DNA of 64,000 bases from a virus: IMG/VR virus record IMGVR_UViG_3300007522_000367, positions 23,059 through 87,058 of that record. One strand, written 5' to 3'. The position numbers and the translations under genes are program-made. Each line of letters opens with the position of its first letter. Position 1 is the first letter of the stretch. The notes beneath the pieces were generated by a model, which was not told the origin of the DNA, made no database searches, and saw only the letters and a list, made by a program, of their open reading frames with translations. Below are positions 1-29,449 of the stretch, piece by piece.

Positions 1-405
1 ATTACAGAACACAATAGAAATGCTACTTCAGTAGACGATTTTTATTATAGAGGAACTGAATTTGAGCACAGCGGTGGCACAGGTATCCGTTCATTAGCTA
101 TGCAGTATCTTCGAGACAGGAAAATTATAGATAGAAGACTTATCTTAAAGAACAATGGCAATACCCTAGAAATTACAACTATGTTCGTAAACAAACAGTA
201 TTACTTAGAATTTTTACAAGATGATTTACAAAAAGAAGCAATGCAATTTTTTACACAGCGTCAATGGGAAACAAAGACTGAAACTTACGAGGCACAAGAC
301 GAACTTAGTATACTAGCAAATGCACATAGAAACATTATTGATAGTTTTAAAAATATGTCTTTAGAACAAATAGTAGAACGAATTAAACAACTACAAGGCA
401 AATAA
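1..405 (+). CDS. C-terminal part of an unrecognised protein (5' end outside window)
   Basis: The reading frame is open from base 1 to the TAA at 403-405, so the gene begins before the window; the ATG at 100 is internal. The visible 134 residues start ITEHNRNATSVDDF and end in a charged helical tail (KNMSLEQIVERIKQLQGK). I do not recognise a family and see no transmembrane segment or catalytic motif. The next gene starts one base after the stop, so the two are probably co-transcribed. Confidence 0.7.
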   Translation: MTEHNRNATSVDDFYYRGTEFEHSGGTGIRSLAMQYLRDRKIIDRRLILKNNGNTLEITTMFVNKQYYLEFLQDDLQKEAMQFFTQRQWETKTETYEAQDELSILANAHRNIIDSFKNMSLEQIVERIKQLQGK

Positions 406-406
406 A

Positions 407-1153
407 ATGAATAAATTTCTTATAACTGGTATACCGCGAAGTGGAACAACTATAATTGTCAAGACATTAGCTAAATTAAATGATGTCGAAGTATACAATG
501 ACCAGGATGGTTTTGGAGAACCGTTTAAAATAGTTAACAAAAAATTAGATTTAAATCCATATTTACGTCTAACAGCAGTTGAAGATAAATGTAATTCAAA
601 ATATTTTGGATTTAAATGTTTCCCCGGCGACTTATTAGATATTAATCAATTAAATGAACAACGTAATTATAAAACATTTGCAATTATAAGAAAAGATATT
701 TGGAAGGCTTTATTCAGTTATTGTGTTGCTAAAACAAAATTTGTCAGAGATAGTACAGACATATTTAAACATAGTTCAACATTACACACACAGCGTCCTT
801 TACAAATTTATATCGATGACTGGCAAAGTCCACTAAATCAAATGATAAGACATTCTTATTTTTGGAGAGTAAAATCGTGTTATGAATTTGAAACACAGTG
901 GAAAAATACAGATATAATTTATTTTGAAGATTTAATCAAACCAAATGCAAGCTTCGAGTGTTTAAATGAGTACTTTGGACAAGAAATAATTTTCAATTTA
1001 GATTACGACGATAGTCATGACACCGAGTCGTATTACGCTAACTTTAGTCCAGAAGTTTTATCTAAATTGTCTAAACATATGTTAAGTACGATAGTTCTTC
1101 CATATGACTGTCCTGACTATATTAAACAGTCTATATATAAATTTATAAAATAA
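407..1153 (+). CDS. Sulfotransferase-like protein
   Basis: This 248-residue protein would transfer a sulfo group from PAPS to an unknown acceptor. Seen: an N-terminal P-loop-like motif GIPRSGTT at residues 8-15, which matches the 5'-phosphosulfate-binding loop of the sulfotransferase family, and a later segment AIIRKDIWKALFSY that fits the 3'-phosphate-binding strand and helix (usual form R-D/N-P-x-D-x-x-x-S-x-Y). Length is normal for the family. The ATG lies one base after the preceding stop. The acceptor could be a glycan, lipid or small molecule; nearby glycosyltransferase-like and ATP-grasp genes are compatible with any of these. A kinase with a similar P-loop is the main alternative. Confidence 0.72.
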   Translation: MNKFLITGIPRSGTTIIVKTLAKLNDVEVYNDQDGFGEPFKIVNKKLDLNPYLRLTAVEDKCNSKYFGFKCFPGDLLDINQLNEQRNYKTFAIIRKDIWKALFSYCVAKTKFVRDSTDIFKHSSTLHTQRPLQIYIDDWQSPLNQMIRHSYFWRVKSCYEFETQWKNTDIIYFEDLIKPNASFECLNEYFGQEIIFNLDYDDSHDTESYYANFSPEVLSKLSKHMLSTIVLPYDCPDYIKQSIYKFIK

Positions 1154-1156
1154 TAC

Positions 1157-1185
1157 TTGACAATATATTGCAGATCAAGTATAAT
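1157..1185 (+). promoter_or_regulatory. Sigma70-type promoter of panD, TTGACA-N17-TATAAT
   Basis: The -35 hexamer TTGACA is at 1157-1162 and the -10 hexamer TATAAT at 1180-1185, both perfect consensus with a 17-base spacer. The panD ATG begins only six bases after the -10 box, where transcription is expected to start, so the message is probably leaderless. The promoter starts just after the stop of the sulfotransferase-like gene. Confidence 0.85.
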
Positions 1186-1191
1186 AAATGT

Positions 1192-1542
1192 ATGAAAGAA
1201 TACATACACGGTAAAATACATAATATAAGCGTAACTGCTAAATCAATTAACTATCATGGTAGCGTAACTGTTTGCTCGTATCTGTTAGAACAAGCAGGTA
1301 TAGACCACTATCAAAAAGTAGATATTGTAAATCTACATAATGGACTTAGATGGACTACATATACTGTCCCAGGTCCTTTAGGATCATTTGAACTAAATGG
1401 TGGTGGCGCTAGGTTAGGTGAAATTGGCGATAAATGTGTAGTTATCGCATACGAGATGAAAGAGCAATTCGTTGGTTCAAAGGTAATTTTTTGTACTACC
1501 TACAACGGAGTAGAAGAAGTTATTGACTACCCTTTGCTTTAA
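1192..1542 (+). CDS. panD: Aspartate 1-decarboxylase
   Basis: Pyruvoyl-dependent enzyme that makes beta-alanine from L-aspartate, the precursor of pantothenate and coenzyme A. The 116 residues align along the length of bacterial PanD from memory: MKEYIHGKIHNISVT at the N-terminus with the catalytic lysine (K8), the self-cleavage site NYHGS with the G23-S24 bond where serine becomes the pyruvoyl group, and the active-site segment NGLRWTTY (R53, T56, Y57; R54, T57 and Y58 in E. coli). An NGGGARLGEIGD segment stands where bacterial PanD has NGAAAH. A TTG at 1168 would extend the N-terminus, but that start lies inside the promoter, so I use the ATG at 1192. The 3' end overlaps the convergent desaturase gene by 23 bases. 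Confidence 0.88.
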   Translation: MKEYIHGKIHNISVTAKSINYHGSVTVCSYLLEQAGIDHYQKVDIVNLHNGLRWTTYTVPGPLGSFELNGGGARLGEIGDKCVVIAYEMKEQFVGSKVIFCTTYNGVEEVIDYPLL

Positions 1543-2278
1543 TAAACGGTAAAAAGATTACACTAGGGTCAAATTCGTTTTTTGAAGCAAAACTATAATT
1601 GCTAGGAGTGTTGTGATGATTATTATGTAATGCTTGTCCCCATGTAAGCAATCCTAATAGTTTAAGATTATAAGAATTATCTGTAGTTTCATGACTTCTA
1701 TAACCAAACCACCCACTGTGGCAACTAATATTAACAATTGCTTCTTGATGGAAACTCCATGCTGCTGGTACTATCCAAAACCATAAAGTAAAGGTAGGAA
1801 CAGTTAACAGTCCTACTACTAATACGCTCCAAATAATAAAAATATAATATTTGTTTAAGAATAGATGAAATGAATTTTTATATATGTCTTTGACATGTCT
1901 AGGATTTATGTTATCTATACTTTTAGAATGAAGCCATCCAATGTACGCATGAAACAATCCGTCTTTGGGACTATGCGGATCGCCCTTAGCGTCTGCATGT
2001 TTGTGATGCATGCCTCTATGAACACCCGCCCACCATATTGGTGTTCCTTGAGCACATAATGTTGCTAATACTAATAAAGGTTTTTCTAACCAAGGTTTTA
2101 GTTCTATTGATTTGTGAGATACGTACCTATGTAATATAGTTGCGGATCCTAATCCGCAAAATGTAATCCATCCTAGTAGTAAGTAAATCCAGTTAATTTC
2201 TGTAAAAAATATTGCAAATAGTGCAACTAACTGCACGACATAAAATACAAAAAATAAACTACTATTTTTCTTTGACAT
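1520..2278 (-). CDS. Fatty-acid (acyl-CoA/acyl-lipid delta-9 type) desaturase
   Basis: Membrane di-iron desaturase of 252 residues that would introduce a double bond into fatty acyl chains. Seen: hydrophobic segments at about residues 8-45 and 135-175, and three histidine boxes: HRYVSH at 50-55, HRGMHH at 87-92 and HNNHH near 217. WVxAxVHRxHH-like spacing places it in the stearoyl-CoA/DesC family. Box two carries an extra residue (H-x3-HH) compared with the usual HRxHH, which may matter for activity. The ATG overlaps the stop of the upstream radical SAM gene by one base (TAATG). A second desaturase lies at 10389-11141; the two are clearly different in sequence. Confidence 0.85.
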   Translation of the reverse strand: MSKKNSSLFFVFYVVQLVALFAIFFTEINWIYLLLGWITFCGLGSATILHRYVSHKSIELKPWLEKPLLVLATLCAQGTPIWWAGVHRGMHHKHADAKGDPHSPKDGLFHAYIGWLHSKSIDNINPRHVKDIYKNSFHLFLNKYYIFIIWSVLVVGLLTVPTFTLWFWIVPAAWSFHQEAIVNISCHSGWFGYRSHETTDNSYNLKLLGLLTWGQALHNNHHNTPSNYSFASKNEFDPSVIFLPFIKAKGSQ

Positions 2279-3105
2279 TAGTATCCACCTTCGTTGTCTT
2301 TGATGTGTTGTAAAAACGGAACAACGTCAAATTGTTCAGTCATTCTTCCTCTTATAGAATTAGTGTCTTCGTCGAACCCGTCAGACACTCCGTTCCAATT
2401 AGTTAAATTTATTCTAAATCCTTTATGCTTTATAGCATAACTATATTGGTTATCTTCTAAAGTTCTAATATTTTCAATTTTTAATTTTTCACAAACTAAG
2501 TTCTTAAGTTCTGTAAATTTATAAGTATCGTTGGTCATGTACCGACCAACCTGTCCAATGTTCCTATATTCTATACTTGTACCAGACTTTACATTTCTCT
2601 CTTTTAAATAATTAAATATTTTTTCTATTAGATGTTCGTTAAGACCTTTAACAATAATACAACCAATTGACAATCTTAAATTTAGATCAATTACATTATT
2701 AAGTGCTTTCATTTTTCCTTTAGCACATTTAGCAAGATCAGTTATTTCATATACACTGTCTTCGTCAAACCCAGTCATACTTAAATAAACAGTTTTTAAT
2801 CCTGCATCTTTTAATAGATTTAGATATGCTTTGCTTGCTATTTTTAATCCGTTTGTCGCAATACTAGTACGATGTCCTTTTTCAACAGCATAAGCAATAA
2901 TTTTATCCAAGTCGGGATGAAGTGTAGGTTCACCGCCTATAAATCTAAATTCAGTTGGATAATCAAATTTATCAATAAAGGAAAACATTTTTTCTTTATC
3001 TATATCTGGATAAAGTCTATTGGGAAGATAACAGTTAGCACATTCCATATTACATCTATGAACAATATCGCAGTATACTGATCTATATTTTAAATTAGTT
3101 ATCAA
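2278..3105 (-). CDS. Radical SAM enzyme (short, no SPASM domain seen)
   Basis: A 275-residue radical SAM protein. The [4Fe-4S] cluster motif CNMECANC gives C18, C22 and C25, and the SAM-binding GGEPT follows at 57-61. The C-terminal third has no cysteine cluster, so an auxiliary SPASM/twitch cluster is unlikely. The start is an unusual TTG at 3103-3105, chosen because AAAGG lies six bases upstream and the in-frame codon four positions earlier is a stop. It follows a 20-codon micro-ORF in the same frame, separated only by a TAA stop and three sense codons. Substrate unknown; it forms an operon with the downstream desaturase. Confidence 0.85.
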   Translation of the reverse strand: MITNLKYRSVYCDIVHRCNMECANCYLPNRLYPDIDKEKMFSFIDKFDYPTEFRFIGGEPTLHPDLDKIIAYAVEKGHRTSIATNGLKIASKAYLNLLKDAGLKTVYLSMTGFDEDSVYEITDLAKCAKGKMKALNNVIDLNLRLSIGCIIVKGLNEHLIEKIFNYLKERNVKSGTSIEYRNIGQVGRYMTNDTYKFTELKNLVCEKLKIENIRTLEDNQYSYAIKHKGFRINLTNWNGVSDGFDEDTNSIRGRMTEQFDVVPFLQHIKDNEGGY

Positions 3106-3114
3106 TTTGCACCT

Positions 3115-3177: not shown

Positions 3178-3183
3178 AGGATC

Positions 3184-3211: not shown

Positions 3212-3214
3212 GAT
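3206..3214 (+). promoter_or_regulatory. Weak candidate extended -10 promoter for the ATP-grasp gene
   Basis: TGTTATGAT reads as an extended -10 element (TG-N-TATGAT) about 37 bases before the ATG at 3252. No convincing -35 box precedes it. It is offered only because the rightward operon starting here has no better promoter. Confidence 0.25.
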
Positions 3215-3251
3215 AAGTATTTAGTAATCATGAAAAGAGGTGTTAGCAGTT

Positions 3252-4496
3252 ATGAAACAAAAAATACTAGTTCCGAATCAAGGCATGCCTAATCAATTTT
3301 TTTTAAAAAGTTGTAGAGATCGCGGCATAGAATTAGATATTATTGTTGATTTAAGTTACGTGCTCCTTACTGACGATGTGTTAAAACACGAACAAGTACT
3401 AGGTAATAAAATTGTTTTAAATGAAAAATTAAACAAACTTGTTATAACAGATAAAATTAAAGAACACTATCAAGACACACAGTTAGATTATATCTACCCT
3501 AGTTGGTTTGATTTTCGAATTATGGCTATGGCGCACATAAACGAAAAACTAAACATACCGGGACTAGGCCTTGATGCTGCGTTAAAGATTTTTGACAAAT
3601 TAACGTATCAAACTATTCTAGAAAAAGAAGGAATAACGCTACCTAAAATTATTTCATGCTTAGATCCATATAGTGAGCAATATTTTTACAACAATGCCGT
3701 GTTTCCTCTAATTGCCAAACCAGTAAAAGGTACAGGTAGTTTAGGTGTAAAAGTATTACAAAGTACTAAAGAAGCAACTGACTTTTTTAAAGATTACGAT
3801 ACTCCGTTTAACTCTTTTTGCGAGAAAGGACAAACCGGATACAAGCACTACGACTATCATTGTTTAGGTAGTTGCTATATACTACAGGAATATATAGACG
3901 GTGATCTAGTGAGCGTGTCAGGGCATGTAATAAACAACAAAGTAAATGTAGACCTAGTTTATGATATAAAAAGTTCAGAGCTTCCGTATCGAGCGGAAAT
4001 AGGATTTACGTATCCAAGCAAACACAATAAAGAAAAATTAACTACTATTATTAAAAAAATAATAAAAACGTTGGAGATAGATAACAGTCCCTTTATGATG
4101 GATTTTATTTACAAAGATACTACATTTTATTTGATAGACTTTTCTGCGAGGTTTAGTACTAGTACACAATATATTATGAACTATTTAGGCGAAAAAGATT
4201 ATGCGTTTAACGTTGTAAATAAAATTTTAAACAATGTAGATTTTGATATTGATTTGCAAAACTGTATCAGTATAAGACACTTGCCTATTGAAAAAGGTAA
4301 AATCAAGTATATTAACATAGATACTACCGAATGTGTAACAGCACAGTTGCCAAAAACGGGATCCCAGCACTATAGTTCAAGGATAGATGCTTACGCAGGA
4401 AACAAAGGATTTATAGTTGCAGAATCTAACGACTTATTGTCTTTAGAAGAAAAAGTTAATAGGATACTAAAAACATTGGAGGTAGAGTATGTTTAA
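3252..4496 (+). CDS. ATP-grasp ligase
   Basis: A 414-residue ATP-grasp protein that probably forms an amide or ester bond through an acyl-phosphate. Seen: a pre-ATP-grasp N-terminal domain, the segment PGLGLDAALKIFDK, the nucleotide-binding strand FPLIAKPVKGTGSLGVKV at about 151-168, and the metal-binding end FMMDFIYKDTTFYLIDFSAR at about 280-300. These features match PylC/carbamoyl-phosphate-synthase-like ATP-grasps; the specific substrate cannot be read. The frame is open to a GTG at 3240, but AGAGG at 3236-3240 sits at normal distance before ATG 3252, so I use that. Its stop overlaps the next gene by eight bases, with a strong GGAGG for that gene inside this one. Confidence 0.78.
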   Translation: MKQKILVPNQGMPNQFFLKSCRDRGIELDIIVDLSYVLLTDDVLKHEQVLGNKIVLNEKLNKLVITDKIKEHYQDTQLDYIYPSWFDFRIMAMAHINEKLNIPGLGLDAALKIFDKLTYQTILEKEGITLPKIISCLDPYSEQYFYNNAVFPLIAKPVKGTGSLGVKVLQSTKEATDFFKDYDTPFNSFCEKGQTGYKHYDYHCLGSCYILQEYIDGDLVSVSGHVINNKVNVDLVYDIKSSELPYRAEIGFTYPSKHNKEKLTTIIKKIIKTLEIDNSPFMMDFIYKDTTFYLIDFSARFSTSTQYIMNYLGEKDYAFNVVNKILNNVDFDIDLQNCISIRHLPIEKGKIKYINIDTTECVTAQLPKTGSQHYSSRIDAYAGNKGFIVAESNDLLSLEEKVNRILKTLEVEYV

Positions 4497-5058
4497 GTTA
4501 AAAGTGTTAGACAAGTCGCATTTACTCGACATATTAAAATTAAACAACGATAGTAAAAAAGTGTATGGTAGTACTAAAACTTCCTTGTACAATCGCGAAT
4601 ACGAAAACTGGATAATCGAAATTCTAAATTTTAATAATAAAGAGTCTGAGATACTAGGAATATTTAATGAAGGAAACGAATTAATACAGTATGCGTTATA
4701 TTATCACATAAGTACATGGCCTGCTGTTGTAGTAGACCATTGGCGTAGCTCAACTGCTCACAAACATAAAGGTGTATTAGCAGCAACAGAATGGACTAAA
4801 ATGTTTGCTGAATACATAGCAAAAAAAGACATATTTGTTTGGTACATTGTTGTTGAAAAAGATATGTGGGATAGATACACTACGCTACAAAAAGATCGAT
4901 TCAACAAAGAACCTCCAAATTATAGATTTTTATTAGAAGAAGTTCCGGCAGGTGAAAGAAGCAAGTTTTTATCGTTTAATACATACTTATTAAAAAATCA
5001 AACATATGATAAAGCCATGTATGTATTTCAAATGGTAAATAAAGATAAATATTACTAG
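4489..5058 (+). CDS. Unrecognised protein, possibly GNAT-fold acyltransferase
   Basis: A 189-residue protein. Its N-terminus (FKLKVLDKSHLLDILKLNND) and the central beta-strand region (ILGIFNEGNELIQYALYYHI) resemble the start and core of GNAT acetyltransferases, and KHKGVLAATEWTKMFAEYIAKKD sits where the acetyl-CoA-binding loop and helix would be, but the classic Q/R-x-x-G-x-G/A loop is not evident. It is tightly coupled to the ATP-grasp gene (eight-base overlap, GGAGG at a good distance), so the two products probably act together. Confidence 0.45.
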   Translation: MFKLKVLDKSHLLDILKLNNDSKKVYGSTKTSLYNREYENWIIEILNFNNKESEILGIFNEGNELIQYALYYHISTWPAVVVDHWRSSTAHKHKGVLAATEWTKMFAEYIAKKDIFVWYIVVEKDMWDRYTTLQKDRFNKEPPNYRFLLEEVPAGERSKFLSFNTYLLKNQTYDKAMYVFQMVNKDKYY

Positions 5059-5067
5059 GAGATAATT

Positions 5068-5478
5068 ATGCAAAAACATACTATAAAAGTTGAAATACCG
5101 ACAACAGTAACTACCCACTTACAATGTCAGATCGCAGTATTAGACATGCTAGGCGAACAAGGCGGTAAAGACTTCACTAATCTTATTATTAAATATAAAC
5201 ACAATGGAGATATTTGGTTCTATAACTTAGATATCCAAGCCGAAGGTGATCAAAAATTTATGTATGCAACACGAGTCTTTGATTCAGCAAAAGCTAAAGA
5301 ATCCTTTGTCACCGAAGCTGCTGAGTATTTTAGCGGTATTGGTGCAACAGTAGTAAGTGACGAAGCAATAACGTTCGAAGCGTTTGCCGCATATGCTGCT
5401 GACAAAAATGAATCTATAGGTATTCCGGCTAAGTTTGCGCCGCCTGGTACGGAGCCACATCCAGAGGAATTGGAGTAA
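5068..5478 (+). CDS. Small unrecognised protein
   Basis: A 136-residue protein with a strong ribosome binding site (AGGAG, eight bases before ATG). The N-terminus HTIKVEIPTTVTTHLQCQIAVLDMLGEQ is soluble; the middle is alpha/beta; the C-terminus is a proline- and glutamate-rich tail ending HPEELE. No family recognised. It is the third gene of the rightward ATP-grasp operon and overlaps the convergent PhyH-like gene by 50 bases, which is long for a chance arrangement but leaves both frames intact. Confidence 0.65.
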   Translation: MQKHTIKVEIPTTVTTHLQCQIAVLDMLGEQGGKDFTNLIIKYKHNGDIWFYNLDIQAEGDQKFMYATRVFDSAKAKESFVTEAAEYFSGIGATVVSDEAITFEAFAAYAADKNESIGIPAKFAPPGTEPHPEELE

Positions 5479-6178
5479 GAACAATATAGTTGGGCCTAGT
5501 AGGCTGTGTGATTGCGTTATTTGTTTTATTATAACAAACGAATAATACATTCCTATCTACTTCACTAGTATTACGCCCGCTGTAGTGCAATGTATTTGCA
5601 TGCATACATATTACGTCTCCTGCCTTGCCAGTCAACTGTATCGCACTACAATTAGTCTTAGACACCATATCGTCGTCAAGTATTCCTTGCGATTCATCAG
5701 CACTATGCTTTATGGTCCACTTAGAGTCGTTAATTTTTGGTACCGGTAAGTTTTGACTTTTTTCTAAAACAGTTAACGGACCATTGTTTTTTGTCATATC
5801 ATCAAGTAAAAACAATACGCTGATAGCATCAGGATTGTTCATTCCATCAAAATTTTTCCAATATGTGTAGTCACTATGCCAAGCATATTCGCCGCCAGTT
5901 TGTGCTTTTTTATAATTAATATGACATTGGTGAATGTATATGTCTTGTCCTAATATTTCTTTAACAAAATCAATTACATTGTTATTATAGATAAACTCAT
6001 TTATTGTCTTGCTCTTCCAATGCGGCGCAAATAAACTTCTAATTGTATTGTTGTCTTCTATAATGTAAGTTTCATCTAATGGTTCGTTTTCTAAACGGAT
6101 AGCTTCTTTTTTTAATTCCGTTGCATCAAATACCTCTTTCAAAATTAAATATCCGGTTTGTAAATATCCGTTGATCAT
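5429..6178 (-). CDS. PhyH-family 2-oxoglutarate/Fe(II) dioxygenase
   Basis: A 249-residue oxygenase of the phytanoyl-CoA dioxygenase family, which hydroxylates small molecules or side chains with 2-oxoglutarate and Fe(II). The facial triad is clear: H101-x-D103 in the segment YAWHSDYTYW and H198 in NTLHYSG, with R209 as likely 2-oxoglutarate ligand. The segment SVLFLLDDMTKNNGPLTVLEKS is the typical PhyH core strand pair. Its ATG overlaps the end of the upstream PP-loop gene by four bases (ATGA-type), so both are one operon. Confidence 0.85.
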   Translation of the reverse strand: MINGYLQTGYLILKEVFDATELKKEAIRLENEPLDETYIIEDNNTIRSLFAPHWKSKTINEFIYNNNVIDFVKEILGQDIYIHQCHINYKKAQTGGEYAWHSDYTYWKNFDGMNNPDAISVLFLLDDMTKNNGPLTVLEKSQNLPVPKINDSKWTIKHSADESQGILDDDMVSKTNCSAIQLTGKAGDVICMHANTLHYSGRNTSEVDRNVLFVCYNKTNNAITQPTRPNYIVLTPIPLDVAPYQAAQT

Positions 6179-7041
6179 TTTTCTACCTCTAATAGTTTTG
6201 TTAATTTGTGTGCTTCTAATGTAAAGACACCATTATGATATTTTTTCAAGTCATCAAATTTTTTAAGAACTTCATTCATTAACGGTGTTTTCTCAATTTC
6301 TTCCCATCCTGTATATTTTGGACGATCATTAAATGTATAATGTTTTGAATATATTATAGGCTTACTAGTTCGTGTACTTAGCTTGCCCGGGTGCTTATTG
6401 GCTATAAGTTCCCGCACTCTAGGCTCTTGTAAAAAGCTCAATGTCATTTCAGGAGTGTATCTTAAAAAATCTGGAGTACCGTCTATGCTTTCATTAGCAT
6501 ACCATTTCATGTAGCTATTTACTCGTTCAGTTTCTTCATACGTCCATATTGAATCAAAGTTTTTAAGGTAAGGCTCGCCATTTGCCATAACAATAGTCCC
6601 ATCTAATTGTAAAATTCCATACATGATGCTAGGTATTTGGTATGCGCAACACTTTACACTATTAGCAATGTCGAATATTTTTTTAGAACTTATAAATTTT
6701 TCAATATCAACATTAACTACTATAGGTGTAATATTGTGTAATTTACAATAATCAAACGCAAATGCAGTATCGTGTGCGTTATAATGTCCGTAACTTATTA
6801 TGGCAGTCTTAAAAGGAACTTTTGCTGTCTTAAAAACATTTAACATAAATTCACTGTCAAGTCCTCCACTAAACATTAATGTTATAGGAGAAGACGAATT
6901 TTCATAGAGTATTTGAGCTGCAAAAACAGCTTCGTCATGAAAGTTTTTTATATCACTACGGGTACATTTTTTAATGTTTACTGACCAACTATCACCTGTT
7001 CCGCTAGTTGTAAAATAATCATTATACGTTGTTGCTGTCAT
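6175..7041 (-). CDS. Asparagine-synthetase-like PP-loop ATP pyrophosphatase
   Basis: A 288-residue protein with the PP-loop signature SGGLDS at 58-63, which binds ATP and releases pyrophosphate while activating a carboxylate or carbonyl group by adenylation. The surrounding segment ITLMFSGGLDSEFMLNVFKTAKVPFKTAIISYG matches the synthetase half of asparagine synthetases, but the N-terminal glutaminase domain is missing and the length is about half. Lasso-peptide cyclases and beta-lactam synthetases are known relatives with the same core, so an amide-forming role is possible. ATG at 7041 has GAGG at normal distance. Confidence 0.75.
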   Translation of the reverse strand: MTATTYNDYFTTSGTGDSWSVNIKKCTRSDIKNFHDEAVFAAQILYENSSSPITLMFSGGLDSEFMLNVFKTAKVPFKTAIISYGHYNAHDTAFAFDYCKLHNITPIVVNVDIEKFISSKKIFDIANSVKCCAYQIPSIMYGILQLDGTIVMANGEPYLKNFDSIWTYEETERVNSYMKWYANESIDGTPDFLRYTPEMTLSFLQEPRVRELIANKHPGKLSTRTSKPIIYSKHYTFNDRPKYTGWEEIEKTPLMNEVLKKFDDLKKYHNGVFTLEAHKLTKLLEVEK

Positions 7042-7050
7042 ACTTACCTC

Positions 7051-7057
7051 ATAAATA
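7051..7057 (+). promoter_or_regulatory. Late-promoter-like ATAAATA before the 7062 gene
   Basis: CATAAATAC lies four bases before the ATG at 7062. The core matches the T4 late consensus TATAAATA. With normal late-promoter geometry transcription would begin at or next to the ATG, giving a leaderless message. No ribosome binding site is visible for this gene, which fits. Confidence 0.4.
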
Positions 7058-7061
7058 CGTT

Positions 7062-12568: not shown

Positions 12569-12588
12569 TTTTTGCACTCCTATAGTCA

Positions 12589-21004: not shown

Positions 21005-21012
21005 GTAAGTAC

Positions 21013-22080: not shown

Positions 22081-23023
22081 ATTTTATGTATTCTTCTATA
22101 GGAGGTTTTTTATGATTATTGCTATCTGGTATGCCAGCTTCGGCGTTATATACCGGGCAATGATATGTAAGAGCCTCAGATTTATAACCAATTCCTAAAT
22201 ATAATTGAGGATGTATTCCAATATCCTCGACCATGTCGTTATCATTTTGTATACAAGCACAAAATCCAACAGCCAATCCAACAGCAGGAGCAGCAAGACT
22301 AACATACATTGCTGCAAGCCCTATTTCAACTCCTGCTTCATAGAGATAGTAATTTTTATCAACTCCGTCTTGCGGAGTTCCTCTAATGCCAAAGGCAAGA
22401 ACATAAGGTGCAAGTACCTGAGGATTATATCTTGATTTTGGATTACCCGGATCTGCTTCAGTGCCTTTATACATCTTTTGTTGTAACTCAGGCAGCGTAT
22501 GTGTAGGAATAATACGCAAGTCATATCTAACTCGGCGTTGTTTACTTGGCACGTAGTTGTGTATACCTCTTACAATATCATCTATTAAATGCTGTTCAGG
22601 TATTTGATCTGTCCAATTATATGTATTGATTCTATTATTTGCGAGATATTCAAAAGACCCTAATTCATAAATTGGTTTATTTAAAATATTGTTTATTGTA
22701 ATAGATACTAAGCTATCAACTTCAACAGACGGACAAATTTCGTTTATCAAAGTATTAATTATTTTATAAGTTTTTACTTCAACATCAGTTGTTCTTAACT
22801 GAGACTTTCCTCTGTTCCAAAATCTACTGGTAATATTCTGTGTTCTAGTAGTATTAGTATTTTCTAAATCATATATCCATGCATCATACACATAACCAAT
22901 ATCTCTATAGCACTTTTCAAATTCAGTAGTACGATTAGGATAAGATTTTTTAATCCATTCTACTGATTGCTCAATTATAGATTTTTTATTTTCTTTTAAA
23001 ATTTTAATTATGTTCATTGTCAT
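22073..23023 (-). CDS. Chimera: phage structural-type N-terminus plus nitroreductase-like domain
   Basis: A 316-residue protein. Residues about 35-110 (KCYRDIGYVYDAWIYDLEN and the following helices) resemble a module I associate with structural proteins of marine T4-like phages. From about 150 onward HNYVPSKQRRVRYDLRIIP, LAPYVLAFGIRG and EAGVEIGLAAMYVSLAAPAVGLAVGFC follow the order of the FMN-binding nitroreductase fold (PSxxNxQPxR, then the GxAxQNLxLAAxxLGLG helix). Function unknown; a flavin-dependent oxidoreductase acting with the neighbouring enzymes is possible. Confidence 0.5.
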   Translation of the reverse strand: MTMNIIKILKENKKSIIEQSVEWIKKSYPNRTTEFEKCYRDIGYVYDAWIYDLENTNTTRTQNITSRFWNRGKSQLRTTDVEVKTYKIINTLINEICPSVEVDSLVSITINNILNKPIYELGSFEYLANNRINTYNWTDQIPEQHLIDDIVRGIHNYVPSKQRRVRYDLRIIPTHTLPELQQKMYKGTEADPGNPKSRYNPQVLAPYVLAFGIRGTPQDGVDKNYYLYEAGVEIGLAAMYVSLAAPAVGLAVGFCACIQNDNDMVEDIGIHPQLYLGIGYKSEALTYHCPVYNAEAGIPDSNNHKKPPIEEYIKYV

Positions 23024-23241
23024 TCCAGTACTAACACTACATCTTTGCCTGGACCTACTTTGCTAGGTAAGTCTCCATATTGCTCTACATACCATTTAAT
23101 AACCGCGGTGTACCAATTTTGACTATTATGATGTGCTTGTTTATTAAACTGATATATGTTATTGTTTGTAGCTTCCATAGTACTTATCGCACGGGCACTT
23201 TCGGTCTGGAGCTGTCTGAGTGTAAGATTACTTATATCCAA
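23020..23241 (-). CDS. Small unrecognised protein, 73 residues
   Basis: The protein begins MDISNLTLRQLQTESARA and ends in PSKVGPGKDVVLVLE. It is predicted to be helical and soluble, without cysteines. It overlaps the upstream methyltransferase-like gene by 14 bases and the downstream gene by four, so it is firmly within the operon. No family recognised; size and position would allow a carrier, adaptor or substrate role. Confidence 0.65.
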   Translation of the reverse strand: MDISNLTLRQLQTESARAISTMEATNNNIYQFNKQAHHNSQNWYTAVIKWYVEQYGDLPSKVGPGKDVVLVLE

Positions 23242-23989
23242 TTTTCATAAACCTAGTATAGTTGGAAAGAAATAATTCACCTTCAAATTTAACATCTGAC
23301 ATAGGAGCTGACTTACTAAATGTATCTAAGTCAGCACTACAATTTATATGATCTTCTATTTCAAAGTAATTGTTGCTTTGTAATACTACTAATTTGCCAT
23401 CCGGAATCTTTGAATACCATTCTTCGAAATTTTCTATGTGTTCGCAACTTGTGTTAATAATAGTATCAGGCGTATCAGCTAAAGGACACGTTGTTCCGTC
23501 AGCTCTAATTACTTCGTAGTTTTCGAACTCATAATTAATATCCATGATATCTTTTGTAGATGATTTAAATTGCCAGTTATCCTTAACCCACGGGTTATTA
23601 AATGTTTCAGCAATACTTCGGCAACTAGGATCAATGTCAAAACTTCTAACTTTATTTACTTTAATGTTACTTTCAAATAACATTGTAGCAAGTGTAGCAT
23701 ACCATCCTGCACACAAGAATACTGTGCCTAAATCAACTTTAAGTTCACTAAGTTCTTTTACTAACCATAGTTTGCTTTCTAGTTGTCCTCGGCTAAAACA
23801 GTCTGCATTAAAACTGTCATCGTCCTTATACTTACGCATACCTTCAATTAATTGACTGCCTGTTAATCCTTGTATAATTCTAAACAATGCAAACTTATCT
23901 TGACTTAATAAGGTTTTTCTAAGATCACTAAAGATAGAGTTATCCGGGTATAGTAATTCTAATCTATCTAGTATTTCAGCAATCTGCAT
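23228..23989 (-). CDS. SAM-dependent methyltransferase-like protein
   Basis: A 253-residue protein. VDLGTVFLCAGWYATLATMLFE at about 86-106 resembles the glycine-rich SAM-binding loop, although it has fewer glycines than usual; RSFDIDP at 116-122 gives the acidic residue that holds the SAM ribose; ADGTTCPLADTPDTIINTSCEHI fits motifs III-IV. It lies between a glycosyltransferase-like gene and a small unknown. It could methylate a sugar or small molecule, but that is inference. Confidence 0.6.
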   Translation of the reverse strand: MQIAEILDRLELLYPDNSIFSDLRKTLLSQDKFALFRIIQGLTGSQLIEGMRKYKDDDSFNADCFSRGQLESKLWLVKELSELKVDLGTVFLCAGWYATLATMLFESNIKVNKVRSFDIDPSCRSIAETFNNPWVKDNWQFKSSTKDIMDINYEFENYEVIRADGTTCPLADTPDTIINTSCEHIENFEEWYSKIPDGKLVVLQSNNYFEIEDHINCSADLDTFSKSAPMSDVKFEGELFLSNYTRFMKIGYK

Positions 23990-24647
23990 TGTATTTCTCC
24001 TTAAGCCAGTTAAAGTCGTTTATCAACCCAAGATCAGCCCCGCTAGAAAGCCCGTACTTCCTGCCAGCACAAGCACCTTTAATAGCATATTCGCCGAAGG
24101 GAGCATCTCCTCCCACTGTTGTCCATATTTTGAGTCTTTCATTTGTTTCTTCCTCGTTTTGTCTATCTATTATTTTACTTGCAAGTTTAGTACATTCTCT
24201 AAATGCACTACGCCATGTACTAAATTCATCTACATTAAATGCAGTGATATTACTAACTTGCTCCATAGGAATAAATTTAGTACTGATGCTTGTGGTCATA
24301 TCTGGTTTACTAGTGTCCATGTGTAATGTTGCTATTCTAGGAAGCAATTTTACACCACCGTATCCGTATTCTAGATCATTAATAGGATTGCGGCTACGCC
24401 ATACATGTACAGCATCTTTATTAGTTCGGTTTGGAACATAAGAAAAATCAAAGTCATCTACAATAAGTGCATCGGCGTCAACAATCCATACCATATAAGT
24501 AAATGCTTTTTTTGCTGCTTCAATATGTGCTTGATGTATTCCTTTAACTCCGTGAACACGCATAGCCCACGGCACTTGTGCTTTTAGGTTGTTCCAGTTT
24601 ACATCAGCTTGGATTTCGTTATAACTTATAAAAATTACATCATACAT
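23976..24647 (-). CDS. Glycosyltransferase-like protein (GT-A type)
   Basis: A protein of 223 residues. The N-terminal YDVIFISYNE strand and the DxD-type motif at D57-x-D59 (VWIVDADALIVDDF) fit a GT-A nucleotide-sugar-binding fold. It is paralogous to the 25989 gene (PWAxRVHGVxG and xxYGxGGxK lines shared). A GTG at 24659 would add four residues; I use ATG 24647. It overlaps the upstream radical SAM gene by eight bases. Confidence 0.6.
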   Translation of the reverse strand: MYDVIFISYNEIQADVNWNNLKAQVPWAMRVHGVKGIHQAHIEAAKKAFTYMVWIVDADALIVDDFDFSYVPNRTNKDAVHVWRSRNPINDLEYGYGGVKLLPRIATLHMDTSKPDMTTSISTKFIPMEQVSNITAFNVDEFSTWRSAFRECTKLASKIIDRQNEEETNERLKIWTTVGGDAPFGEYAIKGACAGRKYGLSSGADLGLINDFNWLKEKYNADC

Positions 24648-25992
24648 TGCTGTTCTCACATAGCTTGTAAAATTCTTTGTACTCTGGAAATACTTCTAAA
24701 AAGTTTTTATTTCTACGACGATCGTACTCATTTACAAATTGCACAAATCCAAATCTGTCTGCACTTACATTAATTTTCTTTTTGAAACGAGCAAGGCAAT
24801 CGTTGTATATTCTTTCTAATTTAAAAATCTCATCCATTTTAAATCGCTTGTTCTTTTTTCTTCGTTCGATCATAAAATCTATAGTAGTCTTTAGATATGT
24901 TTCAATCATTTCCTCAGTTGCAATTTTAATGTCAAGGAACTCTGGGTGCCTAACATATGCAAAATCCATAACTACTCGTTCGCCAAAGTCTCGTTTTAAT
25001 TTTTCTATATGACAAACAAACTTGTGGATTGTGGGCAAACTTAAAATATTAAATGCACTCATAAAACAAACCTTAATATCAGTAGTTTGTTCCAAAAAGT
25101 ATTTAATATTTGAATCAAATAATTTCCAATCCATTCCGTCTCTGCTGTATTCGGCTTGTCCTTTAACACTTTCTGCACTTGTATATAAACTAAATGATTT
25201 AATAGATTTTGAAACTTCTAATTCTTTTATAGAATTAACAAATTCTTTCCATAATAATTTTGGAGGACATGCATTACTGTTTATAGCAAAATCTAAATTA
25301 GGCTGAGGATTGTTAATTAAATATTGAATAACCCGTTTAGTGTGTTTACTTAATAACGGTTCGCCGCCTGTAATTCTGAATACGTGCATATGCTGTACTG
25401 CTTCAGGAAACCATTTCCAGAATGCTTCAATATACGGATTTTCTTCTCTTTCAAGAATAGGAATTTCTGTTTCCTTAATACTATTATAATGGTTGTTTTT
25501 TAATATGTAAGCACCATTTGCTTTTATTTCATCAGTCCATTTGCTACTAAATGCCGGGCCGCAGTATGTACATTTAAAATTACAAACGTTTGAGAAACTA
25601 ACTTCTACATATCTTGGATATATATTTTCGTCTCCTGTTGACGTGATTATTTTCTTTTTATCAGTCTGGCTCCATGTTTCAGAACTTTTAGTAATTCTAT
25701 CACTAAAGTTATTAGTATTATCTTCAATTCGCCAACAATAATCACATTCGGCAGGACGCTTGCCTGCAAGCATTTCTTTTCTAATTTCTTTTTTAAAATT
25801 AGTGTTATGTAATGCACTCGGATTAACTGCAAGTTCATCTAATGGAATTTTATGGGCACCTACATGATGACAACTATGTGTTATGCCAGATCCAAGATGC
25901 ATAGTTACTTGTGTCCATTTAGCCAGGCAAAATCCACAGCCAACAGCATCTAATTCTTTTTTAACTTGTGGTAAGGAATCTAAATTAATCAT
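24640..25992 (-). CDS. Radical SAM enzyme with N-terminal twitch-like cluster domain
   Basis: A 450-residue paralogue of the 16399/17543/19589 genes, with a divergent N-terminal cluster region (GCGFCLAKW, C19 and C22, then C41 in HSCHHVG), the shared line MLAGKRPAECDYCWRIED (C83, C86), and the radical SAM motif CNFKCTYC (C137, C141, C144) with ITGGEPL. It sits between two paralogous glycosyltransferase-like genes, overlapping both, which suggests a glycan- or glycopeptide-related role, unproven. Confidence 0.82.
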   Translation of the reverse strand: MINLDSLPQVKKELDAVGCGFCLAKWTQVTMHLGSGITHSCHHVGAHKIPLDELAVNPSALHNTNFKKEIRKEMLAGKRPAECDYCWRIEDNTNNFSDRITKSSETWSQTDKKKIITSTGDENIYPRYVEVSFSNVCNFKCTYCGPAFSSKWTDEIKANGAYILKNNHYNSIKETEIPILEREENPYIEAFWKWFPEAVQHMHVFRITGGEPLLSKHTKRVIQYLINNPQPNLDFAINSNACPPKLLWKEFVNSIKELEVSKSIKSFSLYTSAESVKGQAEYSRDGMDWKLFDSNIKYFLEQTTDIKVCFMSAFNILSLPTIHKFVCHIEKLKRDFGERVVMDFAYVRHPEFLDIKIATEEMIETYLKTTIDFMIERRKKNKRFKMDEIFKLERIYNDCLARFKKKINVSADRFGFVQFVNEYDRRRNKNFLEVFPEYKEFYKLCENSNV

Positions 25993-26900
25993 TCTGGATC
26001 AATTACAAATTGTTGTGCAGGATTTCTACTAGGATTTTGATATACTATTTTAAAGAATTTACTTTGTTGAGCACTTAATGGAGTTTCAGCAATTGGTATT
26101 TTTAACTCATTAATAAGTTTAATACCATACGTGTCTGTTTTGTGTTTAATATCTTCGATGCCTGCAAAGGAAGTAGTCCATAAGTCATTTAAATATTTAA
26201 AGTCTCTAACTTGAACAAAGTCCCAATCTGTACACATTGTCATATACAGACCCGCTCTTGCTCCTAATATAGCCCAGTCACCGTTTTGTACATCTGCACC
26301 TATCATTAACCAAATCCAAAGTCGGTGTAAGTTTTTCCAATGACCTTTTAATAACTGTTCTTTTGTAGGCTTTGCTCCTTGATCGAGTGCCATTTTAACA
26401 CCTTCGCGGAATCCAGCACGCCATGCTTGTTGTGCTGTAGTGTTGTTATGTACATCAGAGTAACAACTATTTTGTTGAATGTACTGTAAGTCCCAACAGA
26501 AGTCTACTTGAGCTGCTATATTATCAGCATCTGCATTTTCGTGTGTACGCATGTTAAGAACATATTCTTTGGGCCAGCATTTGAGACCGCCGTTGCCGTA
26601 CATCAATCCGTTAATTTCGTTTTTGCCACACCAACTAATAACACTAGATTCTAAATCACTGCCCTGCGGAATATCTAATATTTGTTCTAAAAAGCCAGGG
26701 CGTACAATATTGTCACCATCAACAGTAATAAAACGATCTGTTTCGCTTAATTCTGCACATGCTTTGTGTGCAGCATCTGAACCTTCTACACCGTGTACAC
26801 GTTTTGCCCACGGTGCTTTAGTAAGCAAGTCAGCATAGTTTTTTTCTGCATTGGGTTCGTCATATGACAGATAGATAATATCGTAATCAATAATTCTCAT
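25989..26900 (-). CDS. Glycosyltransferase-like protein (GT-A type)
   Basis: A 303-residue paralogue of the 23976 gene with the same opening (YDIIYLSYDE), the line PWAKRVHGVEG, and the DxD motif D61-x-D63 (FITVDGDNIV). It has a C-terminal extension of about 60 residues. The ATG follows the stop of the upstream gene directly. Sugar donor and acceptor unknown. Confidence 0.62.
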   Translation of the reverse strand: MRIIDYDIIYLSYDEPNAEKNYADLLTKAPWAKRVHGVEGSDAAHKACAELSETDRFITVDGDNIVRPGFLEQILDIPQGSDLESSVISWCGKNEINGLMYGNGGLKCWPKEYVLNMRTHENADADNIAAQVDFCWDLQYIQQNSCYSDVHNNTTAQQAWRAGFREGVKMALDQGAKPTKEQLLKGHWKNLHRLWIWLMIGADVQNGDWAILGARAGLYMTMCTDWDFVQVRDFKYLNDLWTTSFAGIEDIKHKTDTYGIKLINELKIPIAETPLSAQQSKFFKIVYQNPSRNPAQQFVIDPE

Positions 26901-27458
26901 TTATTGCTCCTGTACATTATGTATGTGTTTTACATGATGCTCGCTACACAAAAGGCTTACACGCTGTTTACACACTTCTACATTATAATTTTTTAATGTA
27001 ACCGTATCGCATAATGCAAGTGTTTTTAAATTAACTTGCAATGTATCTAATAGTATAAATCGATTGCTAGGATCAACTACATAGTACTCCTTAATATAAT
27101 TTTCTCCTTGTGCAAACATTGCACATACTATATCATCCATTGTACTTGTAGCTGTCCAAGTACAGTTAAACAAGTCTTGATTTAAAATAATTGCATTATG
27201 ATCTATTACTTGCTTAACAATAATACCCCTAGACTGTGCTCGGTCTTCTGCCTTGTCAATGTGTTTGAGTACAATGTGTATCTTACCTTTTATTTTTGCA
27301 TTTTCAATTACAATGTAATCTAATATTTGCTTGATGCCGTTTGAAAAGTCAGTATATGTTTGTAAATCAACTTCAATATAATATTCGCCAAAAGAATCGT
27401 CTGTTATATTAGCAACTGCTGTGATGTTACCGTCGTCGTTATAATAAATGTAATACAT
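26901..27458 (-). CDS. Unrecognised protein, 185 residues
   Basis: The protein begins MYYIYYNDDGNITAVANITDD and continues with alternating short strands and helices; no catalytic motif or membrane segment is visible. Its ATG shares a base with the stop of the upstream glycosyltransferase-like gene and it abuts the next one. A structural or assembly partner for the enzymes is possible. No family assigned. Confidence 0.65.
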   Translation of the reverse strand: MYYIYYNDDGNITAVANITDDSFGEYYIEVDLQTYTDFSNGIKQILDYIVIENAKIKGKIHIVLKHIDKAEDRAQSRGIIVKQVIDHNAIILNQDLFNCTWTATSTMDDIVCAMFAQGENYIKEYYVVDPSNRFILLDTLQVNLKTLALCDTVTLKNYNVEVCKQRVSLLCSEHHVKHIHNVQEQ

Positions 27459-28264
27459 TACACACGCTCCTCAAGCCATCCTAACATGTCTACTGTTAAA
27501 AATTCATCTTCAACATAATGCAATACGCCTGATTGTTTATATCCACCTATATAAAGTGTATCATTGCCAAAATCTATAGGTAACACATCAGTCCATTTAC
27601 TCGGTACATGACTCCAATTTTGTACTTGAGCTTTCATATGAGTAAATGTTAGATTATTATTAATTTTAGAGTCTAAAATCGTTAGTGCAACTGCGGCACT
27701 GAGATCTACACTATTCCAATTTTGCATGTCTTTAGGAGCATATTGTTGATAAAATACTTTCCAGTTTGTCATTATTACATCTAATAATTTAAAAAAATTA
27801 TGAGCTTCGTCGCATTTTGAAAATTTATACATGCCGGTGTATATATTAGGTAAATTGTTTGAATCAAATGTTTTTCTATAGTATCTATTAGTTACTAATT
27901 CGTTTCTATATGTAGTTACTTTATTTGTAAAAATAATAGGATCAATATTTTCCCATATTGGAGTAATATTATCTAATATTAACATATCAGCATCAAATAC
28001 TAGGGTATTTCTATAAGGAGTTAAATGGTAGATTTTCCAACGATTATCTATTTTCCAATCAGAGTTTTTTGCTAAATCGCCCCAAGGTATAGAAATAACT
28101 TGATCAAATACATCTTTATATGCTGTTGGAATTACTTCATCAGTTATAATACTAATATTTGTGCCAGGTGCGGTTGCAAGAATACTTAATGCCAATGCAT
28201 ATGCTTGTTGTACATAATCTGTTTTACTATTATTTTGTGCAAGTACACATACACCATTACTCAT
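27458..28264 (-). CDS. Glycosyltransferase-like protein (GT8-like)
   Basis: A 268-residue protein. NGVCVLAQNNSKTDYVQQAYALALSI is a typical first strand and helix, and LVFDADMLILDNI gives the metal-binding D91-x-D93 in the GT8-style context FDADxL. It is paralogous to the gene immediately upstream. The frame extends to 28282, but ATG 28264 overlaps the upstream stop by eight bases, the usual junction here. Confidence 0.62.
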   Translation of the reverse strand: MSNGVCVLAQNNSKTDYVQQAYALALSILATAPGTNISIITDEVIPTAYKDVFDQVISIPWGDLAKNSDWKIDNRWKIYHLTPYRNTLVFDADMLILDNITPIWENIDPIIFTNKVTTYRNELVTNRYYRKTFDSNNLPNIYTGMYKFSKCDEAHNFFKLLDVIMTNWKVFYQQYAPKDMQNWNSVDLSAAVALTILDSKINNNLTFTHMKAQVQNWSHVPSKWTDVLPIDFGNDTLYIGGYKQSGVLHYVEDEFLTVDMLGWLEERV

Positions 28265-29105
28265 TTGCAAACTCCTTGTCAATAAACGAGTTTAAGCTAA
28301 ACTTATTCATAATGTGAACAGTTGCATCTGTAAATTTTACTGGAAGATAATCATATGACTTATGTGCAAGTAATTTAATAACGTTATTATTAACATCTAT
28401 TAAAATATCGTTATCCGTTGATACCCACATATCACTAGGTAATTGTTTAGGCCACTCGGTGCTATTTTCAAATCCACGCATCATATGCATTGTAATACTG
28501 AATGCAAAATCGTTTCTAAATTTAGATTCAGTAATATCATATACTGTTCTATAATAATTGTAATTTTCTTTAATATGTTCTACTAAGTCAAATACTGTTT
28601 TTGCAGTATTGCTTTTTGTAAAATATAATATAGTAGCCCAATACATTGGAATAGTTTTATCACTTACTCTATCAAAACTTAGCTCTGTGCCTTGATTAAC
28701 TAAATTGTAATGATTTGCAATCATAAAATCTTCATTAGTATCAAAACATGCTAGTAACTTATCATTTGATACAAATAAATCAGTATCAATTACAATTGTT
28801 TTATCAAATACGCTTAACTCGTATACACTATTGCGAGAAGAGTTTTTCCATTCTAATTTTTTACTTGCATATAATCCGTCATTAAATGTTTTAACAGAAT
28901 TATTAATAGGTGCAGCAATGTGTGATACAACATCAATATAATTTTTATAAAACGGGTATTCTGATTCAAGGTAATCAACTGTATCTGTAATCAGTTGTAC
29001 AGGTAAGTTTAAATACTGTTTTACTCGCTTTGCACAATATACTGCTTGCTTTACATAATCAATACTGCTGTTGTTAAATGCAAAAAGTACAACACCTTGC
29101 TTCAT
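28257..29105 (-). CDS. Glycosyltransferase-like protein (GT8-like)
   Basis: A 282-residue paralogue of the 27458 gene: GVVLFAFNNSSIDYVKQAVYCAKRV at the N-terminus, IVIDTDLFVSND with D107-x-D109, and WATILYFTKSNTAKTVFDLV in the acceptor half. Sequence similarity suggests a tandem duplication. ATG overlaps the stop of the 29102 gene as ATGA. Donor and acceptor cannot be told. Confidence 0.62.
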   Translation of the reverse strand: MKQGVVLFAFNNSSIDYVKQAVYCAKRVKQYLNLPVQLITDTVDYLESEYPFYKNYIDVVSHIAAPINNSVKTFNDGLYASKKLEWKNSSRNSVYELSVFDKTIVIDTDLFVSNDKLLACFDTNEDFMIANHYNLVNQGTELSFDRVSDKTIPMYWATILYFTKSNTAKTVFDLVEHIKENYNYYRTVYDITESKFRNDFAFSITMHMMRGFENSTEWPKQLPSDMWVSTDNDILIDVNNNVIKLLAHKSYDYLPVKFTDATVHIMNKFSLNSFIDKEFANE

Positions 29106-29449
29106 AAATCAACCAATCCTTGTACTGATCTATTTTTTTTAATTGTTTCGTAGTCAACGGCATATTTACGTGATGCAACTGCATAGACTCCTATTAGTTC
29201 TTTTGCAAATTCGTTAACATCAGGAATCATAAAAGGAATACTGTTATCATCTAGTACAACTGCACCATCTGGAATTGTTTTTGACAACGTATAGACAAAA
29301 TTAATTAGTTCTTGTGTAACAGTAAACTTATGGCCGTGAATATAATGCACAAGGTTTTCTTTATACTGTGCAAGAAAAATACGTTTTTGGTTGTTTTGCG
29401 TTGCTAAAAAATTAGAAAACTCTAATGCTTTACTTAATCTTTCGTCCAT
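29102..29449 (-). CDS. Unrecognised protein, first gene of the leftward operon
   Basis: A 115-residue soluble protein (begins MDERLSKALEFSNFLATQNN). A segment TIPDGAVVLDDNSIPFMIPDV lies between two helical parts. It is the first gene after the promoter at 29472-29500 and is coupled to the glycosyltransferase-like genes. GAGG lies about ten bases before the ATG. No family assigned; a regulatory role is possible from its position only. Confidence 0.65.
   Translation of the reverse strand: MDERLSKALEFSNFLATQNNQKRIFLAQYKENLVHYIHGHKFTVTQELINFVYTLSKTIPDGAVVLDDNSIPFMIPDVNEFAKELIGVYAVASRKYAVDYETIKKNRSVQGLVDL

Follow-up and report, generated by a model that had tools for sequence, protein, structure and literature searches.

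What would a phage do with eight radical S-adenosylmethionine (rSAM) genes packed into 29 kb? The genes lie in the window analysed here, a stretch of 64,000 nucleotides corresponding to bases 23,059-87,058 of the 87,058-base IMG/VR record IMGVR_UViG_3300007522_000367 (itself a fragment), with open reading frames (ORFs) numbered g02-g51. They belong to a 29-kb enzyme cassette that precedes a T4-related structural module (29.5-61 kb). The initial annotation of this DNA took the density of enzyme genes to mark a biosynthetic or modification pathway, and rightly left its substrate open. A dedicated pathway is borne out by a fixed gene order, purifying selection, the presence of an rSAM array in all 15 large related records examined and a core in common with Bdellovibrionota, and the substrate can be narrowed, as a prediction, to a glycan-type product linked to tail fibres. 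Our tentative preference is that the block is the modification arm of the host-recognition module of an as yet uncultured, large T4-related phage of the sea, where it would tailor a glycan, the fibre being slightly favoured as acceptor.

Radical SAM enzymes and glycosyltransferases of the cassette

All eight rSAM genes named at the outset (at 2278, 8919, 15134, 16399, 17543, 19589, 21013 and 24640) are real. Each product matches PF04055, above the curated cut-off for all eight in one scan and slightly under it for g27 in a per-protein scan, and CxxxCxxC is intact throughout (CIFNCAFC in g14). Four of them, all on the minus strand, belong to NF033640 (N_Twi_rSAM, "twitch domain-containing radical SAM protein"), whose curated cut-off is 170 bits over full length: g23 (16399..17583; 402.6 bits, 1.9e-120), which has the N-terminal twitch/SPASM arrangement and matches SPASM PF13186, g24 (17543..18730; 300.3 bits, 2.3e-89), the core gene g26 (19589..21004; 423.7 bits, 7.8e-127) and g32 (24640..25992; 311.8 bits, 7.3e-93). 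The N-terminal cysteines C17, C35, C85 and C88 (g23 numbering) are invariant or almost so across 17 divergent members of this family, and the auxiliary cluster of the N_Twi enzymes is therefore probably intact.

The remaining four, likewise on the minus strand, score at most 46 bits against NF033640 and are other types of rSAM protein. Of these, g05 (2278..3105; PF04055 1.9e-18) is MoaA/TrsS-like and falls under every NCBIfam cut-off, and g14 (8919..10388; PF04055 6.8e-16) is of the B12-binding type, with a weak N-terminal B12-binding match (E 0.001) and PhpK/ladderane-type models nearest, below cut-off. The other two are core genes: g22 (15134..16249; PF04055 2.1e-15), with a C-terminal cysteine set and 62-69% identity to Bdellovibrionota chromosomal genes, and g27 (21013..22080), borderline at 28.8-30.9 bits vs a PF04055 cut-off of 29.5. 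A weak ninth rSAM match (22.9 bits) lies outside the window in a gene that is QueE-like by eye.

Fold or profile comparisons back all four genes that had been called glycosyltransferase-like, each on the minus strand. An AF2 model of g33 (25989..26900; pLDDT 76.5) was compared with the PDB by Foldseek, and the top matches are almost all glycosyltransferases (E 2e-4, probability 0.99); their TM-scores are low, about 0.3-0.4, so that the GT-A fold class is supported and a close relationship is not. As a homologue of g33 by alignment, g31 (23976..24659) is assigned the fold of g33, and on the strength of this model the two appear to form a new GT-A family. The family profile of g35 (27458..28282) and g36 (28257..29105) matches glycogenin (E 5e-4), which makes both GT8/glycogenin-like. 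A g31-type glycosyltransferase also forms the N-terminus of a 1220-aa bacterial ORF (L338:9895-13557).

A fixed order behind the tail fibres and a core in common with Bdellovibrionota

How constant is the arrangement of these genes? A g33 scan of viral contigs returned at least 597 relatives, and gene order was read in the best 80 contigs, some of which are near-copies; relatives were picked by similarity, and the frequencies given here apply to such selected sets. Upstream of g33, g35 was found in 74/74 contigs, g36 in 72/72 and both g37 and g38 in 68/70, and an rSAM gene stands directly downstream in 72 of the 80. The shared order, fibre g39/g38 - g37 - g36 - g35 - g34 - g33 - rSAM, recurs in 68-74 of the 80 and is held in divergent relatives too. 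Along the minus strand, g39-g42 (30442..36692) form a tail-fibre/collar module that is syntenic in relatives (g41 matches Phage Tail Collar PF07484, 1.4e-17) and g38 (29507..30412) is a virion-type fibre protein adjoining the cassette. The conserved small protein g37 (29102..29449; position -4 in 68/70 loci) separates the fibre genes from the GT8 genes, and g34 (26901..27458), to which no function is assigned, keeps its position in the gene order of relatives.

The same order appears when other genes are followed. Relatives of g25 were found in 11 IMG/VR contigs, one of them (L011) essentially the same virus, and 10 of the 11 have related neighbours, mostly in the same order. Larger relatives share the succession gp46-gp47-gp55, baseplate, giant gene, fibre genes, g37, glycosyltransferases and rSAM. 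Each large record carries an array of 4-20 rSAM genes, and counts per record range from 3 to 20. The two highest, 20 (in 97.8 kb) and 19 (in 57.3 kb), come from near-identical records. As many as 20 such enzymes is extreme for a single phage record, and the chemistry of rSAM enzymes makes changes that are beyond ordinary enzymes. Where an orthologue is present and the synonymous rate (dS) measurable, the ratio of nonsynonymous to synonymous substitution rates (dN/dS) of the rSAM genes is 0.03-0.21 against the related contigs L012 and L021, and they are thus under purifying selection. Variable genes of the relatives' cassettes that could be named by Pfam include DegT, epimerase, GDP-mannose dehydratase, UDP-glucose dehydrogenase, RmlD, carbamoyltransferase, FkbM methyltransferase, hexapeptide transferase and GDSL genes. 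One relative encodes its own S-adenosylmethionine synthetase. In a 192-kb relative (G006; L032-L041) the cassette genes are scattered across 51-190 kb; an S-adenosylmethionine synthetase, a protein resembling tryptophan halogenases and one resembling SbmA/BacA are encoded among the ORFs of this and two further relatives.

The structural module of the window contains homologues of gp6, gp25, gp5, gp53, gp55, gp47 and gp46 (named by eye, with gp6 and gp47 backed by similarity searches). Its gp6 and gp47 are closest to those of the cultured jumbo phages Atu_ph07, SCTP-2, Phosso and PA5oct (35-49% identity). The matching tail module of PA5oct is not flanked by any annotated rSAM gene; in Atu_ph07 and Phosso the module is followed immediately downstream by three or four rSAM genes. 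Among 50,697 annotated phage records no relatives of g25 or g33 were found. A single ORF flanked by gp6 and the fibre genes makes up the giant virion structural gene (36631..51465, minus strand; 4944 aa). It is syntenic with genes for virion structural proteins in PA5oct and Atu_ph07, and its conserved counterparts in relatives measure 3432-4960 aa. Elsewhere in the record, inspection by eye suggests that a split intein interrupts a DNA polymerase gene (L009:3-3279) within the YGDTDS motif, a separate ORF resembling homing endonucleases lying between the two halves.

Where else do the core genes occur? In a scan for the g23 family, with one genome per prokaryote species, 65 loci were found, mostly in Bdellovibrionota, the best at 51% identity over nearly full length. 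Eight Bdellovibrionota genomes (G027-G034; L263-L327 and L334-L338) contain 8-33 NF033640 matches each, often in tandem arrays, and matches over cut-off occur in 8/8 of these genomes vs 0/14 control genomes. In four Bdellovibrionota genomes g26- and g22-type rSAM genes (with the g27 type in three) are clustered with g31/g33 and mostly with g30, on chromosomal contigs. The g31/g33 family itself occurs in 11/192 Bdellovibrionota genomes, compared with 0/399 in the phylum of Methylocystis and 0/195 in the phylum of a Verrucomicrobiota genome (Fisher p 1.5e-7). Taken singly, g22 and the glycosyltransferase are each present in 11/192, and they occur together in 9 genomes (p 4e-12, a value inflated by kinship among the genomes). 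On a Bdellovibrionales contig (L297/L337), g38-g37-g36-g35-g33-rSAM follow one another in the phage order beside housekeeping genes that by eye are trmD-, rnhB- and pheT-like. Of the three phyla sampled, only Bdellovibrionota contained g31/g33, and this restriction suggests where a large clade of orphan phages may find its hosts.

A tree of 48 g26-type proteins places the main phage clade (support 100/99) within Bdellovibrionota. Two "bacterial" rows inside that clade come from contigs of 13 and 47 kb in metagenome-assembled genomes and are probably phage. Transfer of g26 from bacterium to phage is likely and falls short of proof, because the tree is rooted at its midpoint with a distant outgroup.

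Product and acceptor

What, then, might the cassette make? A glycan or glycoconjugate pathway is the most economical reading, since four glycosyltransferases lie in the block (two in the core) and many nucleotide-sugar or glycan-decoration genes occur among the named variable genes of relatives. We infer both the glycan-type product and, in the scheme that follows, what each enzyme does, in which sequence and on which acceptor. The two GT8/glycogenin-like glycosyltransferases and the two of the putative GT-A family would assemble a short glycan or glycoconjugate, which the rSAM enzymes would then alter at the C-H level (e.g., by epimerisation, dehydration, methylation or cross-links) and the oxygenases would hydroxylate or desaturate. 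The ATP-grasp, GNAT and PanD genes could attach amino-acid or acyl groups. The finished product would most likely end on a surface used in host recognition, with a slight preference for the phage's own tail fibres, given the fixed order that ties the block to g39-g38-g37. In line with this, part of g28 is a domain whose other occurrences are in giant virion proteins of cyanophages. If the rSAM enzymes do act on tail fibres or on host envelopes, then recognition between marine phages and their hosts involves a chemistry invisible to sequence-based host prediction.

Several observations weigh against a glycan destined for the fibre. Over the 20 kb read around three Bdellovibrionota chromosomal copies of the core, or of part of it, no fibre gene is recognised; a fibre is therefore not required by the core. 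Within the window's own 29 kb no nucleotide-sugar enzyme is recognised, and only a minority of the relatives' variable ORFs are genes of this kind, most being unnamed. Known rSAM/SPASM enzymes act mostly on peptides. Finally, the rSAM genes at the matching place in two cultured relatives sit with a protein that ends in a CHxS tail (see below), which suggests protein modification there.

The strongest competitor, although rather unlikely, keeps the glycan-type pathway and moves its acceptor: the lipopolysaccharide or capsule of the infected cell would be rewritten, either to block superinfection or to hide the cell. Bacterial core copies without a fibre favour a cell-surface or secreted product and imply that the core can act on a bacterial surface, and the two desaturases could act on membrane lipid. 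A role at the host envelope has been proposed for the glycosyltransferases of pelagimyophage host-recognition clusters (PMC7029224). Such a role does not need the strict order behind the fibre genes that is seen across divergent phages, and no export or ligase gene is recognised, though most ORFs are unnamed.

A wider proposal would join phage and bacterium. Here a hitherto unrecognised rSAM-based route to an extensively modified glycan or glycoprotein of the surface would be common to the predatory Bdellovibrionota and a large, almost wholly uncultured clade of marine jumbo-related T4-like phages; the phages would have taken the core from Bdellovibrionota, their likely hosts, and wired it to tail fibres, with the same fibre chemistry in both. 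The surface of Bdellovibrio bears phage-fibre-like adhesins (PMC10769870), which makes a fibre-decoration chemistry common to phage and predator conceivable and provides no direct link here. A limited literature search, without subscription journals, found no reports of N_Twi rSAM enzymes in Bdellovibrionota or of rSAM modification of virions. Taken as a whole, we consider this proposal unlikely.

Could the substrate be a protein instead? In a pathway like those for ribosomally synthesized and post-translationally modified peptides (RiPPs), the target of the rSAM enzymes and oxygenases would be either a ribosomal peptide or a virion protein, the latter at its C-terminal tail, and glycosylation would be one further step. 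The combination of rSAM/SPASM and B12-rSAM, iron/2-oxoglutarate (Fe/2OG), ATP-grasp and GNAT genes recalls RiPP clusters. The cultured relatives add to this: gp170 of Atu_ph07 (L125:21119-22009) and 289 of Phosso (L127:22415-23335) adjoin an rSAM gene, and their products have the C-termini CHSSCHASCHNSRSRR and CHTSCHASCHSSRSRR. A DNA pattern for the CHxS tail found at least 120 stretches in IMG/VR. Eighty of these loci were read (L128-L207), and in 75 of them an ORF of 106-309 aa, at times two in tandem, ends in CHxSCHxSCHxSR[GSA]RR, nearly always at most four genes from an rSAM-like gene. Three CHxS-adjacent rSAM proteins were tested, and two of them match peptide maturases (PapB, DynA, HxsB) and exceed the cut-off of the SPASM model. 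Judged by these sequence features, the CHxS proteins look like a widespread family of rSAM-modified, RiPP-like phage proteins, apparently undescribed in the literature searched.

For the window itself a RiPP-like pathway is nevertheless improbable. The CHxS loci are almost all without a g33-type cassette, and the window's rSAM proteins are mainly of the N-terminal-twitch family, not the C-terminal-SPASM type. No CHxS or other cysteine-rich or repeated precursor tail was found in the (incomplete) record, in three large relatives or in 80 g33 loci. Homology between the CHxS proteins and the fibre protein g38 was considered and is not claimed, the match being weak (hhalign probability 21%, P 0.001, 38 columns).

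Less credible still is the idea that the cassette yields a diffusible compound, be it a metabolite, a lipid or a cofactor, by which host metabolism is changed (auxiliary metabolic genes), or that it serves DNA modification. The desaturases, PanD and the PP-loop gene would fit it, as would genes of 7-deazaguanine type elsewhere in the record (by eye, TGT-like at L009:6295-7902, FolE-like at L010:1102-1794 and QueE-like at L010:1791-2663), which suggest 7-deazaguanine modification of phage DNA or RNA; the cassette is linked to tail fibres and glycosyltransferases, however, and contains no recognised nucleotide-modification gene. That the assembly has joined phage and bacterial contigs into a chimera, a possibility named at the outset as an undoing of the pathway and prompted by bacterial-looking enzyme genes beside phage structural genes, is rejected as vanishingly improbable, since these junctions recur in independent contigs.

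Accessory genes and known systems

About ten oxygenases had been counted in the cassette, and the count stands in part. One is certain: g09 (5429..6178, minus strand), a PhyH-type Fe(II)/2-oxoglutarate oxygenase (PF05721, 2.4e-25) and the only one to reach a family cut-off. About eight others are probable or plausible, g18 is doubtful, and part of the count drew on a chance-prone motif: H-x-D...H-(R/K) occurs in 31/92 similar-sized ORFs of a relative and, after shuffling, in 35% of the window's proteins, a chance rate for which the HxD...H motif was rejected as evidence of an oxygenase. Apart from a weak match of g19, the other eight have no library match.

Conserved residues single out g16 (11145..11996) and g20 (13713..14447), both on the minus strand, as probable Fe/2OG oxygenases: H171/D173/H218/R230 of g16 are kept in a 30%-identical Bdellovibrionota protein, and H159/D161/R171/H209 of g20 are kept down to 29% identity in a Bdellovibrionota homologue. 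In the oxygenase-like g25 (18727..19605, minus strand), H121/D123/H265/K279 are invariant in 8/8 relatives of 66-93% identity; a structure model with pLDDT 40 did not confirm a double-stranded beta-helix. Motifs make four more proteins plausible oxygenases, namely g11 (7029..7733, plus strand; HVD...H...R), g12 (7730..8344, plus), g13 (8341..8910, minus; HTD...H...R), with a single contig relative that is 100% identical, and g21 (14440..15243, minus; HID...H...K), with relatives of 63-100% identity. On the minus strand, g19 (13219..13713) is Asp/Asn-hydroxylase-like (PF05118, Asp_Arg_Hydrox, E 0.005, below cut-off), and the doubtful g18 (12638..13294) has HPE in place of HxD and no family match. 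Comparison by hhalign of g20 and g25 with the PhyH protein g09, and of g20 with g25, gave no signal with profiles that are too shallow; PDB sequence searches with g13, g16, g19 and g25 returned nothing relevant, and IMG/VR held no further relatives of g13 or g16 beyond a contig identical to the window.

Pfam matches confirm the two fatty-acid-desaturase family members, g04 (1520..2278, minus strand; PF00487 1.9e-15) and g15 (10389..11141, minus; PF00487 1.2e-15), the ATP-grasp ligase g06 (3240..4496, plus; PF02655 3e-10, over cut-off) and the GNAT acyltransferase g17 (11993..12619, minus; PF00583, over cut-off). A second protein, g07 (4489..5058, plus), is GNAT-like by eye only, with no family match. 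The initial annotation had missed g03 (1168..1542, plus), a PanD-like aspartate 1-decarboxylase, an enzyme that makes beta-alanine (PF02261 8.9e-27, over cut-off; TIGR00223 73 bits, below its cut-off of 106). Its neighbour g02 (407..1153, plus) is a weak sulfotransferase-like P-loop protein (Pfam Sulfotransfer_3, E 0.037, below cut-off). The proposed PP-loop ATPase g10 (6175..7041, minus) does match QueC (0.0077) and TilS_N (0.0015), only weakly in each case, and a weak match occurs also in a Bdellovibrionota cluster.

The nitroreductase-like call for g28 (22073..23023, minus strand) holds (PDB 3gbh, E 1.7e-5), and the enzyme is fused to the cyanophage virion-structural repeat domain mentioned above. 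This N-terminal domain resembles repeats of giant cyanophage virion proteins at E 0.003 in the whole phage collection, where almost all of 84 matches are to cyanophages, and more strongly when compared with two chosen cyanophage proteins; it is absent from the phage's own giant protein. Next to it, g29 (23020..23241, minus) encodes a conserved 73-aa protein, 62-95% identical in relatives, with no function assigned. The core protein g30 (23228..23989, minus), which has homologues in Bdellovibrionota, is methyltransferase-like by eye, and that label found no support in any family library searched. Members of the g30 family have a variable number of N-terminal repeats of about 18 aa (DLRKAVxEENLHSIFR-like) and range from 253 to 416 aa.

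How does the cassette compare with systems already described? Polytheonamide-type RiPP pathways use a similar toolbox of rSAM, B12-rSAM and Fe/2OG enzymes; the window's cassette differs in its four glycosyltransferases and in that no precursor peptide was found. The rSAM clusters of Atu_ph07 and Phosso likewise lie directly downstream of a homologous tail module, but they consist of other rSAM types with C-terminal cysteines, include the CHxS-tailed protein and have no glycosyltransferase of the g31/g33 or g35/g36 families that was found. Because their rSAM proteins are not close homologues and the other genes differ, the tail-side place is a hint, not proof, of a common function; as both phages are cultured, the question of tail-linked rSAM enzymes can be tested now. 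The chromosomal N_Twi arrays of Bdellovibrionota share homologous g22, g26, g27, g31/g33 and g30 but have no recognised phage tail genes, save for the one contig with g38/g37/g36/g35.

Among marine phages, rSAM genes are not as rare as the initial annotation held. The T4-like TARA_ERS488813_N000010 (183 kb) has 12 of them (PMC5332604), and rSAM cassettes are included in the host-recognition clusters (HRCs) of pelagimyophages, whose glycosyltransferases have been interpreted as host-recognition or O-chain genes (PMC7029224). TARA_ERS488813_N000010 is akin to the window's phage in carrying many rSAM genes in one T4-like marine genome; in the accessible text it is presented as part of an Fe-S gene inventory, without cassette, subfamily or tail linkage, and it is by description, not by sequence, that the two are set apart (PMC5332604). 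In T4-like marine phages the pelagimyophage HRC forms a variable island next to the genes for tail fibres and includes glycosyltransferases of GT8 type as well as rSAM cassettes (PMC7029224). The window's cassette too is an island in the structural region that adjoins tail fibres and contains glycosyltransferases; the HRC proper is defined by its place between VrlC and gp14. Unlike the HRC, the window's clade has the fixed core g37-g36-g35-g34-g33-rSAM and probable oxygenases, 8-20 rSAM genes in its closest records, tail genes nearest those of PA5oct and Atu_ph07, and a matching core in Bdellovibrionota. While rSAM-rich T4-like phages and HRC rSAM cassettes were already known, new here are the subfamily to which the rSAM enzymes are assigned, the fixed order of the core, the scale and the connection to Bdellovibrionota.

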